38,332 nt of DNA from Desulfovibrio sp. (lineage in GTDB: Bacteria; Desulfobacterota; Desulfovibrionia; Desulfovibrionales; Desulfovibrionaceae): NCBI GenBank assembly GCA_031288535.1, contig JAITRF010000149.1:1-38332 (forward strand), in the 5' to 3' direction. The translations under genes were made by a program, and so were the position numbers. Below the pieces are notes generated by a model. It made no database searches and had not been told where the DNA came from. It worked only from the letters and a program-made list of their open reading frames with translations. Positions 41 to 7,140 of the stretch are shown here, piece after piece (position 1 is the stretch's first letter; the number at the start of each line of letters is the position of its first letter).

Positions 41-64
41 CCCCCCCCCCCCCCCCCCCCCCCC
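41..64. repeat. 24-base poly-C homopolymer tract
   Basis: Positions 41-64 are uninterrupted C, preceded by several T-rich runs. Tracts this long are slippage-prone and in other bacteria underlie phase variation. No convincing coding frame runs through it: the frames that do give only polyproline or polyglycine followed by unrecognisable sequence. It may be a promoter-spacing switch, a neutral tract, or partly an assembly or sequencing artefact. Confidence 0.9.
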
Positions 65-1394: not shown

Positions 1395-4300
1395 TTAATG
1401 ACGCGTTCCGGCTTCTTTTTTTCTTCTTCTGAACAGGTTGCTTACGAGCACAAAGAAGATCGGGGTAAAGAAGATGCCCAGAGTGGTGGCCGTAAGCACT
1501 CCGCTGATGACGGCCGTTCCGAGGGCGTTTTGCCCGCCTGAGCCCGCTCCGCGGCTGATCGCCAGGGGGATGACGCCAAGAATGAAGCAGAGCGAGGTCA
1601 TGAGGATCGGCCGCAGGCGCTGTCTGGCCGCCTTGATTGTCGAGGCGAGGAGGTCGCCGCTTTCCATGTACAGATCTTTGGCGAATTCCACTATGAGAAT
1701 CGAGTTTTTGGCGGAAAGGCCGACCACGGTGAGGAAACCGATCTGGAAATAGATGTCGTTGCTCATGCCGCGCAGCCACATGCCCGCCAGCGCCCCGGCA
1801 ACGCCAAGCGGGGCCGCGAGCAGCACGGACAGGGGGATGGTCCAGCTCTCGTAGAGGGCCGCGAGGCAGAGAAAAACCACGACCAAAGATATCGTATAGA
1901 GCATCGGGGCCTGGTCGCCGGACATTTTTTCCTGGAGCGAGATGCTGGTCCAGGCATAGCCCAGGCCTTCCGGCAGTTCCTGGGCCAGGGTCTCCATGGT
2001 GCGCATGGCGTGGCCCGAGCTGTAGCCGTGCTCGGCTTCTCCCTGGATTTCTATGGAAGGTTGGCCGTTGAAGCGTTCAAGGCGCGGCGAACCTCGGGTC
2101 GTGCGCATGCTCAGAAAAGAGGAGAAAGGCACCATTTCGCCTTTGGAGTTGCGCACATAATAGCGGTAGAAGTCGCTTGCCTGCATGCGGAAGGGCGTGT
2201 CGGCCTGCAAATAGACTTTTTTGGTGCGGCCCTTGTCCGTGAAGTCGTTTATGTAGACGCTGCCCCAATACGCGGATACGGCGGTGTTTATTTCCGCCTT
2301 GCGCAGGCTTTGCGCGCCCGCTTTGGCCAGGTCCACGTCCAGCTCGTACTGTTCCACGTCCTCTAATCCGATGTGGCGCACGTTGCGCAGCGAGGGGTCC
2401 CGGCGCGCCTCGGCCAGCACCTGGTCGCGCGCCGCCATGAGGGCGTCGTGGCCGCGTCCGGAACGGTCTATCAGTTCGATGTCGAAGCCCGCGGACGAGC
2501 CGAGTTCCATCACCGCCGGGGGAAAAATGGTGAAGATGCTGGCTTCCGGTATCCGGGAAAGGTTTTGCAGTGCCCGGCGCGTTATGGCCTGGACGCGCTG
2601 TTCGTCCTTCGGGCGATCCGCCCAGTTCTTGAGCCGGATGAAGGTCAGTCCGACGTTCTGCCCGAAGCCCCCGAAACTGACCCCGGCCACGTTCATCACT
2701 GTTTGCACCACATCCGCCTCCTGATTGCGAAAATAATCGCTCACCTTGTCCAGCACCTGCATGGTGCGTTCAAATGTCGCTCCCGAGGGAAGCTGGACGG
2801 TGGATATCAGAAGTCCCTGGTCTTCCTCGGGCAGGAAAGAGGAGGGGAGTATCCGGAACAACGTGGCGATGAGCGCGAGGCAGACCAGAAAAAACAGCAG
2901 CCAGCGGCGCGGTCTGACTATGAGCCCGTCGACCTTCCTCTGGTATCTCGTGGTGACTCTGTCGAACCAGCGGTTGAAGCGCCCGAACAGTCCTTCCGTG
3001 GCCCGATGCGGAGTTTCCGGCAAAATGGTCGCGCACAGGGCGGGGGTCAGGACTATGGCTACCACCACCGAGAGCGTCATGGCGGTCACTATGGTTATGG
3101 AGAACTGCCTGTAGATTACCCCGGTGGACCCGCTCATGAAGGCCATGGGCACAAAGACCGCGGAGATGACCATGGCCACCCCGACCAGGGCGCCGGTGAT
3201 CTGGCTCATGGATTTCCGGGCCGCGTCCCTGGGGCTTAAATGCTCCTCGCGCATAAGGCGCTCCACGTTTTCCACCACCACGATGGCGTCGTCCACCAGC
3301 AGGCCGATGGCCAGCACCATGCCGAACATGGTCAGGGTGTTGACGGTGAAACCGGCGAGATAGAGCACTCCGAAAGTGCCGAGAAGCACCACCGGAATGG
3401 CGATGGTGGGGATGAGCGTGGCCCGGAAGCTTTGCAGAAAGAGATACATGATCAGAAAAACCAGGACCACGGCTTCAAGCAAGGTGTGAAACACCGCGTT
3501 TATGGATTCGCGCACCACCGGCGCGGTATCGTAGGCGAAGTCGTATTTGAGTCCCTGGGGGAAAAAGCGGGAGAGCTCTTCCACCGTGGCCTTGATCAGG
3601 TCCGTAGTTTCCAGCGCGTTGGCCCCGGAAGCGAGTTTTATGGCCAGACTGGCGGAAGGGTAGCCGTTGAAGCGTCCGAAGGCCTGGAAGCGTTCGTTGT
3701 TCAGTTCGACCCGCGCGACGTCCTTTAGATAAAGGATGGAACCGTCCTCAAGGGTGCGGATGAATATGTTTTCAAACTGGGAGACGGATTCGAGGCGTGA
3801 GGCGGCGTTTACGGTGATATTGATTTCCTGTCCGGACAGGGCCGGGGCCGCCCCCACCTGTCCGCCCGTGACCTGGTCGTTTTGTTCGGAGACGGCCGCG
3901 ATCACGTCCGAGGGATTGAGCTTGAAGCGTTCCATTTTTTCCGGGTCGCACCAGATGCGCATCGCGTACTGGGCGCCGTAAACCGTGGATTCTCCCACCC
4001 CGGAAAGGCGGCTGACCGGGTCCTGAACATAGCTCGTCACGTAGTCTCCGATGTCGCTGTTCGTCATGCTCCCGTCGGTGCTGAAAATGGAGACGATGAT
4101 GAGAAAGTTGCGCACGGACTTGACCACGGAGATGCCCATGCGCTGCACCACTTCAGGAAGCATGGGCGTGGCGAGCTGGAGCTTGTTCTGCACCTGCACC
4201 TGGGCTATGTCGATGTTGGTGCCGGCCTCAAAGGCGAAGTTGATGATGCTCTGTCCGGCGGAATCGCTGGTGGAGTACATGTACATGAGGTGGTCGATGC

Positions 4301-4511
4301 CTTTCATCTGCTGCTCGATGACCTGGGTGACGGATTCTTCGACCGTCTTGGCCGAAGCCCCCGGATAGAGCGCGGATATGGCCACCTCGGGCGAGGCTAT
4401 GCTGGGATACTGGGCGATTGGCAGAGTTTTGAGGGCGAAGGAACCCCCGAGCATTATGAGAATGGCGATGACCCAGGCGAATATGGGACGGTCTATGAAG
4501 AAATTGGACAC
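1395..4511 (-). CDS. acrB: RND multidrug efflux transporter, HAE1 family (AcrB/MexB type)
   Basis: The 1038-residue inner-membrane transporter uses the proton gradient to pump drugs and other hydrophobic compounds through a tripartite channel. Its length is typical of AcrB/MexB. The N-terminus (MSNFFIDRPIFAWV) is the family hallmark. The proton-relay pair D407-D408 sits in GLLVDDAIVVVEN, at the same positions as in AcrB, and a conserved lysine lies in GLSAKNSILIVEFAK in the second half. Start is GTG 4511, preceded by GAGG at a normal distance. It follows the adaptor gene by about 106 bases, a gap that holds a palindromic repeat. No outer-membrane TolC/OprM gene is present in the window. The substrate range cannot be inferred; the acrB/mexB symbol is by family only. 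Confidence 0.95.
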   Translation of the reverse strand: MSNFFIDRPIFAWVIAILIMLGGSFALKTLPIAQYPSIASPEVAISALYPGASAKTVEESVTQVIEQQMKGIDHLMYMYSTSDSAGQSIINFAFEAGTNIDIAQVQVQNKLQLATPMLPEVVQRMGISVVKSVRNFLIIVSIFSTDGSMTNSDIGDYVTSYVQDPVSRLSGVGESTVYGAQYAMRIWCDPEKMERFKLNPSDVIAAVSEQNDQVTGGQVGAAPALSGQEINITVNAASRLESVSQFENIFIRTLEDGSILYLKDVARVELNNERFQAFGRFNGYPSASLAIKLASGANALETTDLIKATVEELSRFFPQGLKYDFAYDTAPVVRESINAVFHTLLEAVVLVFLIMYLFLQSFRATLIPTIAIPVVLLGTFGVLYLAGFTVNTLTMFGMVLAIGLLVDDAIVVVENVERLMREEHLSPRDAARKSMSQITGALVGVAMVISAVFVPMAFMSGSTGVIYRQFSITIVTAMTLSVVVAIVLTPALCATILPETPHRATEGLFGRFNRWFDRVTTRYQRKVDGLIVRPRRWLLFFLVCLALIATLFRILPSSFLPEEDQGLLISTVQLPSGATFERTMQVLDKVSDYFRNQEADVVQTVMNVAGVSFGGFGQNVGLTFIRLKNWADRPKDEQRVQAITRRALQNLSRIPEASIFTIFPPAVMELGSSAGFDIELIDRSGRGHDALMAARDQVLAEARRDPSLRNVRHIGLEDVEQYELDVDLAKAGAQSLRKAEINTAVSAYWGSVYINDFTDKGRTKKVYLQADTPFRMQASDFYRYYVRNSKGEMVPFSSFLSMRTTRGSPRLERFNGQPSIEIQGEAEHGYSSGHAMRTMETLAQELPEGLGYAWTSISLQEKMSGDQAPMLYTISLVVVFLCLAALYESWTIPLSVLLAAPLGVAGALAGMWLRGMSNDIYFQIGFLTVVGLSAKNSILIVEFAKDLYMESGDLLASTIKAARQRLRPILMTSLCFILGVIPLAISRGAGSGGQNALGTAVISGVLTATTLGIFFTPIFFVLVSNLFRRRKKEAGTRH

Positions 4512-4617: not shown

Positions 4618-5928
4618 TTACACTTTTGAAGCGGTTTTTCCAGGATCCCGCCCGGAAGTGCGGCTTTGCGCCTTTTCCCCGGAGGGCAGTTCCGCGCCCG
4701 TGACCAGTTTGCCCGGGCCGGTTTTGAGATGCCCCTCGACCAGCAGCCTGTCTCCGGATTTCAGGCCGGAAGTTATCAGCCATGTGTTGCCGATATTGCG
4801 TTGAATGCGCACGTCGCGGCGCACCGTCCTGAAGGTGTTTTCCGGAGAATTCCGCGGAATGTCTCCGTTTTCCAGCACATAGACGTAGGCCGTGGAAAAC
4901 TGGTCGCGCTGCACGGTTTTTTGCGGCGCGAGGACGGAGTTTTCCAGGACGGCCTCTTCAAATATCGCCCGCACGTGCATCCCCGGCAGAAGGAGCTTGT
5001 CCTGGTTTTCAAATTCCGCGCGGATGTTGACCATCCCGGTGCTCTTGTCAATCGTTATGTCGGAAAAAAGCAGGACGCCGAAAATTTCCGGGGAAGCATC
5101 CCCGCCGGCGGCGTCAAGACGCCCGTAGAGGGAGCCGTCTTCAAGTTTCAGCCTGATTCTCGCCTTGTCCGCTTCAATCCCGCGCCAGCCGTCTTCTGCG
5201 AGGATTCCGCGCAGACGCATTATTTCCGTGTTTGCCTGGGATATGTCCACGTACACCCTGTCCAGACTTTGGATTGTGGCGAGGGGTTCGATCTGGTTCT
5301 GCGTCGCCAGGGCTCCCTGGGTGATGTAGGAGCGGCTTATCCTGCCGCTTACCGGGGCGGTGACCTTTGTATACCCGAGATTGATGCGCGCGGCTTCCAG
5401 CGCCTTGCGCGCCGCTTCCACTTCCGCCCTGGACCGGGTATAGGCGGAAATCGCGTTGTCGTATTCCTGGCGGCTGACGGCGTCGCGTTTAATGATTTTG
5501 CCGTATCGTTCCGCGAGGAGGCGGGCGGAGAACTCGTTGGCCTCGGCCATGGCCAGGGCGGCTTCCGCGTTTTTGCAGGCCGCTTCGAAGACGGCCGGTT
5601 CTATTTCATACAGGGTCTGACCGGCCGTGACGTCGCTTCCTTCCTCAAACAGCCTTTTGCGGATGATGCCGGAAACCTGGGGGCGGACGTCGGAGGTAAT
5701 GAGGGCCGATACCCGGCCGGGCAGTTCGGTGGTGAGGACGAGACGCTCTTCTTTGATTACGCTGTAGCGTACGAGAGGGATGGGCGCGGCCGCCCGCGGG
5801 GCTTCCTCGCAGGCGCAGCAAAGCAGGGCGAGCGTGAGGGCGGAAAGCGTAAGGAGGGCGGAACGCGGGCGGGAAAGATTTTCTGACAGGCTCTGGCCGG
5901 GCGGGGCCGGATTATTTTCGCGTTGCAT
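4618..5928 (-). CDS. acrA: RND efflux periplasmic adaptor (membrane fusion) lipoprotein, AcrA/MexA type
   Basis: The protein is 436 residues from ATG 5928. A signal segment rich in Leu and Ala ends in LLCCAC, a plausible lipobox, so it is probably anchored in the inner membrane. The mature part follows the HlyD/AcrA plan: a first lipoyl half (PQVSGIIRKRLFEEGSDVTAGQTLYEI), an alpha-helical hairpin, a second lipoyl half (NLGYTKVTAPVSGRISRSY) and a beta-barrel. It bridges the transporter to an outer-membrane channel. An in-frame ATG at 5967 would add 13 residues and has a GAAGG 10 bases upstream. I prefer 5928 because a promoter-operator-like element fills 5939-5967. From 5928 the mRNA would have almost no leader, so the start is uncertain. 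Confidence 0.9.
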   Translation of the reverse strand: MQRENNPAPPGQSLSENLSRPRSALLTLSALTLALLCCACEEAPRAAAPIPLVRYSVIKEERLVLTTELPGRVSALITSDVRPQVSGIIRKRLFEEGSDVTAGQTLYEIEPAVFEAACKNAEAALAMAEANEFSARLLAERYGKIIKRDAVSRQEYDNAISAYTRSRAEVEAARKALEAARINLGYTKVTAPVSGRISRSYITQGALATQNQIEPLATIQSLDRVYVDISQANTEIMRLRGILAEDGWRGIEADKARIRLKLEDGSLYGRLDAAGGDASPEIFGVLLFSDITIDKSTGMVNIRAEFENQDKLLLPGMHVRAIFEEAVLENSVLAPQKTVQRDQFSTAYVYVLENGDIPRNSPENTFRTVRRDVRIQRNIGNTWLITSGLKSGDRLLVEGHLKTGPGKLVTGAELPSGEKAQSRTSGRDPGKTASKV

Positions 5929-5938
5929 AATGCGGGGG

Positions 5939-5967
5939 AAGATATTACAAAGAAATTGTAAAATCAA
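5939..5967 (-). promoter_or_regulatory. efflux operon promoter with a palindromic operator filling its spacer
   Basis: On the minus strand TTGATT (5967-5962, 4 of 6) and TATCTT (5944-5939, 4 of 6) are separated by exactly 17 bases. Those 17 bases are the perfect inverted repeat TTACAA-N5-TTGTAA (5945-5961). A repressor dimer bound here, as TetR-family regulators do at many efflux promoters, would block RNA polymerase. No regulator gene lies nearby. The predicted transcription start would be only a few bases before ATG 5928. Confidence 0.5.
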
Positions 5968-6207
5968 TCTCGAATCGGCCTTCGTCGTTACGGGTTTCGC
6001 AAGTCGCGCATTGTTTCAGGGGGGGAGACTTTGGTTCAGCAAAAAATCTTTTGTGGTCGGAAGTTGCTTCATTCAGGGGAATTGCCGTTTGGCGCAGGGC
6101 AAGGCCCTGCATACCGTTTTTGCGCCCCCTCCGTTCGGGGAGCGGGCAATCCGCCCGGCTCCCGTCCGCCGGGACGGAGCCGGGCGGTGGACGGAGTTGG
6201 CCGCGGA
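5968..6207. other. divergent intergenic region with two strong hairpins upstream of the surA-like gene
   Basis: This gap separates the efflux operon from the chaperone gene. GCAGGGC-AAG-GCCCTGC (6094-6110), followed by ataccgttttt, resembles an intrinsic terminator or attenuator. A longer stem, CCGCCCGGCTCC (6151-6162) with GGAGCCGGGCGG (6176-6187), has an additional inner stem and sits just before the chaperone start. It could be a structured leader. No ORF is credible here. Confidence 0.55.
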
Positions 6208-7140
6208 TTGAGACACGCGCTGAAATATATCGCCGTCTTCCTGTTCTTTCTGCCGGTTTGCGGGCATGCGGCCACCCCGGGCGATATGACGGTCAACAAG
6301 ATAGCCGCGGTTGTGAACGGCGAGATGGTCACCCTGCATGAGCTGCGCATGCAGACCATGGTGGAACTGGCCCGCCGGCGTCTCAACCCGGACAGCCCCG
6401 AAGCGAAGGAAGTGCAGAAACAGGTGCTGGACGGGCTGATCAACGATATGCTCATGCGCCAGGACGCCAAACGCTACAAGGTGACGGTTTCGGATGCGGA
6501 AGTGGAGGAGGAGCTTGAGCGGACCCTGAAAAGAACCGGCATGACCCGCAAGCAGCTTGAAGAAGGCTTGAAGAAGGAAAGGGCCACGCTGGCCATGTAC
6601 AAGGAGCGCATCGGCAACAGCCTGCTGCGCCAGCGCATGGCCGGTTACATGGTGATGCGCAAGGTTTTCGTAACCCCTGAGGAAATATCCGCATATTATA
6701 CCAAACATAAGGACGAGTTCGCCGGGGAAAAGACTGTGGACTTTTCCCTGCTCATGCTTCAGGATGGGAAAAATGTTCAGGATATCTATCAGAAAATAAA
6801 ATCCGGGGCCGTGAGCTTCGAGGATGCGGCCCGCAAGCACTCCGCGGACGCCTCCTCCCAGAACGGCGGGCGTATGGACGGGGTGATTTTCGAACGTCTG
6901 CCCCCGGAAATGAAAAAACTCCTCAGCGGCCTCAAAGACGGGCAGATGTCTCCGCTTTTGCGCATTAAAGGCGGGTATGTGGTGATAAAGAGGGAACGGA
7001 TCAACGAGGCCAGACCCCTGACCTTCGAGGAAGCCAGGCCGCGGATAGAGGAGATACTCAAAACGCCGCTTCTGGAAGAAAGATTCAAGGAATATATAGG
7101 GCAGTTGCGCGCCAAGTCGGTGATAGACATACGCATTTGA
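6208..7140 (+). CDS. periplasmic SurA/PpiC-type peptidyl-prolyl isomerase and chaperone
   Basis: The 310-residue protein starts with a signal peptide (KYIAVFLFFLPVCGHA) and then a SurA_N-like helical domain beginning NKIAAVVNGEMVTLHEL. A single rotamase (parvulin) domain spans roughly residues 165-285, with DAARKHSADASSQNGGRMDGV and LKDGQMSPLLRIKGGYVVIKR. SurA of enterobacteria has two rotamase domains; this one has one. It probably assists outer-membrane protein folding. The TTG at 6208 is chosen because it begins the signal peptide, with GGAG 11 bases upstream. The in-frame sequence before it is arginine/proline-rich and overlaps a hairpin. Confidence 0.85.
   Translation: MRHALKYIAVFLFFLPVCGHAATPGDMTVNKIAAVVNGEMVTLHELRMQTMVELARRRLNPDSPEAKEVQKQVLDGLINDMLMRQDAKRYKVTVSDAEVEEELERTLKRTGMTRKQLEEGLKKERATLAMYKERIGNSLLRQRMAGYMVMRKVFVTPEEISAYYTKHKDEFAGEKTVDFSLLMLQDGKNVQDIYQKIKSGAVSFEDAARKHSADASSQNGGRMDGVIFERLPPEMKKLLSGLKDGQMSPLLRIKGGYVVIKRERINEARPLTFEEARPRIEEILKTPLLEERFKEYIGQLRAKSVIDIRI

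Follow-up and report, generated by a model that had tools for sequence, protein, structure and literature searches.

A palindrome between divergent surA-like and RND efflux genes of a Desulfovibrio sp., read as possible abutting core-promoter sequence

The palindrome that separates a surA-like gene from an RND efflux operon in a Desulfovibrio sp. genome is, in our reading, part of a compact divergent promoter region and would consist of the core-promoter sequence of two promoters that abut each other, a reading to which we assign a probability of about one half. The window, that is, the whole stretch of DNA analysed here, comprises 38,332 nucleotides (contig JAITRF010000149.1 of assembly GCA_031288535.1), with the surA operon on the plus strand and the RND adaptor-pump operon on the minus strand. 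The more widely common part of the region would be the surA-side TTGCAT-17 bp-TANNNN, whose -10-like TTACAA constitutes one arm of the palindrome. One sub-clade would then have added a TTACAA on the opposite strand, together with TATCTT, as the adaptor's own weak promoter, and the mirror image would arise where the two core promoters abut. RNA polymerase would use the hexamers of both strands, a repressor would not be needed, and the order of gain given here is the one that we infer.

The features considered are collected in Table 1. By eye, the N-terminus of the adaptor contains a signal peptide with a lipoprotein-like Cys, while surA is followed on the plus strand by genes for RodZ-like, RecO, GlyQ, GlyS and two LptF/G-type proteins. 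It should also be noted that a run of C near the contig end (window 41-64) is possibly an assembly artefact.

Table 1 Features of the region between and around the surA-like gene and the efflux operon, in window coordinates.
Feature	Position	Strand	Basis or remark
RND inner-membrane pump, AcrB family	1395..4511	-	Pfam ACR_tran
RND periplasmic adaptor, HlyD/AcrA-like	4618..5928	-	Pfam HlyD_D23, HlyD_3; translation; start taken as ATG 5928
Conserved 59-bp island common with G008	5911..5969	none	1 mismatch, in palindrome loop; flanks align poorly
Genus-restricted conserved block, CGTTGCATAATGCGGGGGAAGATATTA on +	5921..5947	none	Single copy; pattern counts and alignment
Putative -35 TTGCAT, surA promoter	5923..5928	+	Invariant in 9/9 block-bearing genomes; 3/6 consensus
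Putative -10 TATCTT, adaptor promoter	5939..5944	-	4/6 consensus; also in G008 and G005
Palindrome TTACAA-N5-TTGTAA	5945..5961	none	Sequence; sole exact match in genome
Putative -10 TACAAA, surA promoter	5946..5951	+	TANNNN in 9/9 block-bearing genomes; 4/6 consensus
Putative -35 TTGATT, adaptor promoter	5962..5967	-	4/6 consensus; kept in G008; G005 differs
surA-like periplasmic chaperone/peptidyl-prolyl isomerase	6208..7140	+	Pfam SurA_N, Rotamase_2; putative TTG start

The palindrome and its conservation

The sequence of the region, its pattern of conservation and its linkage to surA or to the adaptor are matters of direct observation. The palindrome has perfect 6-bp arms around the 5-base loop AGAAA (TTACAAAGAAATTGTAA), and the original prediction, by which a perfect TTACAA-N5-TTGTAA fills the whole 17-bp spacer between TTGATT and TATCTT, is confirmed by the sequence, both hexamers being read on the minus strand. 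The dyad lies over the predicted pump promoter, itself a weak prediction. This is the one exact copy in the 2,832,608-base (2.83-Mb) genome, and near copies with up to two mismatches are not enriched there (41 sites per strand, as compared with 74 for the reversed control pattern). Among 2000 shuffles, one contained a hexamer pair with at least 8 of 12 consensus letters whose 17-bp spacer was a perfect 6+5+6 palindrome, a joint criterion that was set after the site had been seen. Our literature search returned no report of a TTACAA/TTGTAA palindrome.

The first arm (5945-5950) overlaps both the end of the 27-bp block described below and the TANNNN hexamer on the plus strand. The second arm (minus-strand TTACAA, 5961-5956) is paired with the first in the window, G008 and G005 only, no arm pair being found in the other six block-bearing genomes, and the exact pattern TTTTACAATT-N(1-8)-CTTTGTAATATCTTCC is present in 3 of 199 family genomes, namely that of the window (G000), G008 and G005. 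Conservation, the absence of which would have counted against the original prediction, is thus seen in two further species, with both arms present in each. The adaptor tree supports the grouping G005+(G000+G008) with 100/99, and confinement of the second arm to a supported clade speaks for the divergent promoter reading; the surA tree contains no G008 sequence and leaves the relationship of G000 and G005 unresolved. The window and G008 are identical at 58 of the 59 bases of 5911-5969 and at 81% of 196 four-fold sites of the adaptor, which gives P of about 5e-5 for the 59-base identity, over an interval chosen after the alignment was seen. G005 is more distant, with 53% identity over 162 four-fold sites, and nonetheless keeps both arms as well as TATCTTCC.

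The two sister species differ in the spacing of the arms, which is N5 in the window and G008 and N10 in G005, where five extra bases are found. The distance from TATCTT to a -35-like hexamer is, in contrast, 17 bp in both layouts, the hexamer being TTGATT in the window and G008 and TTTACA in its place in G005. As the promoter spacing is kept in G005 while the dyad spacing is not, a core promoter is favoured over an operator. On the other side, the window and G008 share the N5 spacing and the same two arms, which would be expected of an operator as well, and this common spacing in two species makes the operator reading possible. TTTTACAATT...CTTTGTAATATCTTCC is conserved in three species, beyond what two weak hexamers would need.

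Promoter-like sequence on the two strands

When up to two mismatches to its pattern were allowed, 9 of 15 genus genomes contained the block, each in a single copy, and none of 25 genomes from outside the genus did; in eight of the nine it lies upstream of surA, and both results count in favour of the divergent promoter reading. A second, surA-direction pattern finds the same nine genomes. An exact pattern scan of a species-level contig collection gave eight matches, six in Desulfovibrio sp. records, whose sample codes may point to termite guts, and two in unrelated records; by a hand estimate, a few exact matches would be expected by chance. All nine block-bearing genomes present TTGCAT-N17-TANNNN towards surA, although it should be considered that TTGCAT was itself part of the search pattern when its invariance was counted. 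The surA-direction hexamers match the consensus at 7 of 12 positions in eight of these genomes and at 6 of 12 in G011.

Six of the nine genomes have the block between divergently oriented surA and adaptor genes. The other three are G010, where the block precedes surA and the contig ends 52 bases past the block, G011, where a second SurA-like gene with the same reading direction takes the place of the adaptor beyond the block, and G008, where the adaptor alone stands beside it. The block of G011 is thus clearly without an efflux operon next to it, and G008 keeps 58 of 59 bases with no surA ortholog found (genome 92% complete; best SurA match, 25% identity), observations that support the surA and the adaptor side of the divergent promoter reading, respectively. 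In G008, surA has been lost, has moved or is unassembled. Relatives of surA that lack the block are found in G014, G006 and G007. Relatives of the adaptor were found in 57 of 59 genomes, and eight genus genomes, including that of the window, have one with at least 59% identity; in seven of these the block lies upstream and aligns ungapped over 27 bases, the exception being G009, with no block upstream. By eye, the regions upstream of the adaptor in G008 and G012 (L003, L005) also contain another repeated element, with TTTCCGCATGGAAATC- and CGCATTGAAAAGT-like parts.

We hold with modest confidence in the hexamers that the block is a surA promoter. Its match to the sigma-70 consensus is poor, so that recognition by a different sigma factor, or a binding site for a regulator, could account for the block just as well; a further point against the divergent promoter reading is that the block stands about 220-290 bases from surA in the window and in G012. 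The block of G001 and G002 may act for the adaptor, since it overlaps a better adaptor-direction pair there, TTGACC-18-CATTAT (9/12). A sigma-54 reading of TTGCAT was rejected, since the upstream GG stands at varying distance (few aligned sequences, by eye). Boxes of the BirA and CpxR types were also considered and gave no fit. Positions 6090-6207 of the window, between block and surA, are G+C-rich and REP-like and contain inverted repeats; a stretch that is similar by eye precedes surA in G012 (L043) and was not seen before surA in G001, G002, G005 and G013.

In the adaptor direction, TTGATT and TATCTT together have 8 of 12 consensus letters, so that the core promoters of both strands, at 8/12 (minus) and 7/12 (plus), are weak matches. 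The G005 counterpart, with TTTACA, reaches 9/12, and the 17-bp spacing of TATCTT in both layouts is evidence for the divergent promoter reading. Against it, other adaptor-direction pairs, in the window and in congeners, are as good or better. The intergenic region holds two pairs with at least 8/12, the better being a minus-strand TCGAGA-18-TGTAAT (9/12), while shuffles of the region gave a mean of 1.38 such pairs, and a further adaptor-direction pair in the window is TTCCCC-18-AATAAT (8/12). A stricter scan of 5700-6300 (9/12, with fixed A and T in the -10) returned no promoter. Among the congeners, G012 has TTGCCC-18-CATTAT (8/12), and in G001, G002 and G013, CTTGCA-17-TATAGT (8/12) lies closer to the adaptor.

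The start predicted from TATCTT falls a few bases before ATG 5928, and no Shine-Dalgarno-like sequence was seen by eye before this ATG. The suggestion that the adaptor mRNA may be leaderless can therefore be retained for the window, where leaderless translation from ATG 5928 is possible, but not as a conserved feature, because the equivalent ATG opens short frames other than the adaptor in the sister species, of 19 codons in G008 and of 5 codons in G005. The only other usual in-frame start before the signal peptide that we found on reading the window is TTG 5967, within the predicted promoter. In G008 (L101), the end of the 19-codon frame overlaps the presumed start codon of the adaptor (ATGA), while in the window (5869-5928) this frame continues into the adaptor and yields a long N-terminus before the signal peptide.

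Going by its title, work of Warman and colleagues reportedly ascribes divergent transcription to symmetry of the DNA sequence. The region described here comprises two divergent genes, one short intergenic element and hexamer pairs on both strands, and in these respects resembles divergent (bidirectional) bacterial promoters as defined in PMC12340889, which cites Warman et al. 2021. It differs from them in that its hexamers are weak and known from sequence alone.

Repressor control, chance and RNA structure

The explanation that ranks next after the divergent promoter region is that a dimeric repressor of the TetR, MarR or another type, encoded elsewhere in the genome, binds the palindrome as its operator and blocks the adaptor promoter, and possibly surA as well, given the overlap with the surA -10. 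We regard this as a tentative alternative, less probable than the divergent promoter region. RND efflux operons repressed by TetR or MarR regulators, of the AcrR-acrAB type, resemble our region in the order of adaptor and pump genes and in a dyad that would lie over the adaptor promoter, here a weak prediction. The perfect arms, the 17-bp size and the position over a putative promoter are as an operator would have them, G008 and G005 have preserved the two arms, and the sole difference between the window and G008 in 59 bp lies in the loop. In eight order-level relatives (L021, L022, L024-L026, L028, L030, L031) the adaptor relative is immediately preceded by a TetR gene, and in the congener G006 (L027) by a MarR gene; these nine loci were picked by eye among 24 viewed loci and tested by Pfam. 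This type of pump thus appears to be often repressor-controlled in relatives.

The evidence to the contrary is of several kinds. The five extra bases between the arms in G005 amount to half a helical turn, more than an operator for a rigid dimer would be expected to allow, and the other six block-bearing genomes lack the arm pair. Unlike loci of the AcrR-acrAB type, the window has no TetR/MarR-type regulator among the ten proteins that were tested by Pfam (up to 14849: methyltransferase, pump, adaptor, SurA, RodZ-like, RecO, GlyQ, GlyS and two LptF/G-type), which bears out the earlier statement that no regulator gene is adjacent. The genome has one TetR_N match and six MarR_2 matches, three of them above the cut-off. 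The original prediction had proposed to look for the palindrome near TetR/MarR genes across the genome, and this search, which covered the TetR_N and MarR_2 families, turned up no site with up to two mismatches in the seven loci (1.8-3.2 kb each); palindrome-like sites with three mismatches occur in two of them. Neither TTACAA nor TTGTAA was found at four paralogous adaptor loci, in 360 bases each at estimated starts. A second exact site is likewise absent, and near sites are not enriched. Repressor control of the pump, as originally proposed, is therefore upheld in part: a conserved stretch does lie upstream of the RND adaptor, with both arms kept in two sister species, but neither a fixed arm spacing (10 bases in G005, 5 in the window) nor a regulon (a single exact copy) was found. 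Our literature search brought up no report on TetR/RND operators in promoter spacers or on operators of Desulfovibrio RND-efflux operons. As a separate observation, two paralogous RND adaptors of the genome, L098 (G000:C66) and L099 (G000:C58), have by eye a common inverted-repeat-like stretch near their starts, with ATCAAAACTGC- and GCAGTTTTGAT-like parts, possibly of a repeat family.

A more specific and rather improbable version is that the dyad was recruited in one sub-clade, where an unlinked, single-target regulator would join the control of surA to that of the RND pump by way of a mirror arm on the existing surA promoter. If true, envelope quality control, through the outer-membrane chaperone surA, would be coupled to efflux.

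It is more doubtful still that the palindrome is a functionless by-product of chance, with selection acting only on the surA block and the nearby promoter letters. A perfect 6+5+6 inverted repeat is by itself not rare, as there are 17 in the window and two in the 279-bp intergenic region (that at 5945-5961 and another), and 1000 dinucleotide-shuffled versions of the latter included 100 with at least one; against a chance origin, three species have the two arms without any change, and the distant G005 is one of them.

Equally unlikely, and rejected by us, is a role of the palindrome in mRNA stability or translation as a hairpin at the 5' terminus of an RNA (that of surA, if transcription begins near 5930), because, of the four relatives folded along with the window (G008, G005, G002 and G010), all but G008 have a weak stem or none. 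RNA of 5930-5975 does fold in the window, at -10.2 kcal/mol (z -4.05) for the plus strand and -6.1 kcal/mol (z -2.46) for the minus strand, the G008 equivalent forms a 6-bp stem and three further pairs (z -2.07 over its full length), and in G005 a stem of 6 bp is retained around a larger loop. The G005 stem is weak, though (-4.2 kcal/mol, z -0.44), G002 and G010, which lack the second arm, have no such stem, G008 keeps the palindrome with no surA alongside, and Rfam gave no match at the gathering score, its sole match (E 0.38) being on another stretch. Moreover, given the predicted promoters, neither strand would be transcribed across the whole palindrome.

Implications for the surA element

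If the divergent promoter reading is correct, a surA element, probably older than the efflux promoter letters, would have been re-used, and would have gained an opposed second set of promoter letters in one Desulfovibrio-like sub-clade. In that case, even a perfect palindrome placed in the spacer of a promoter would not have to be a repressor site.
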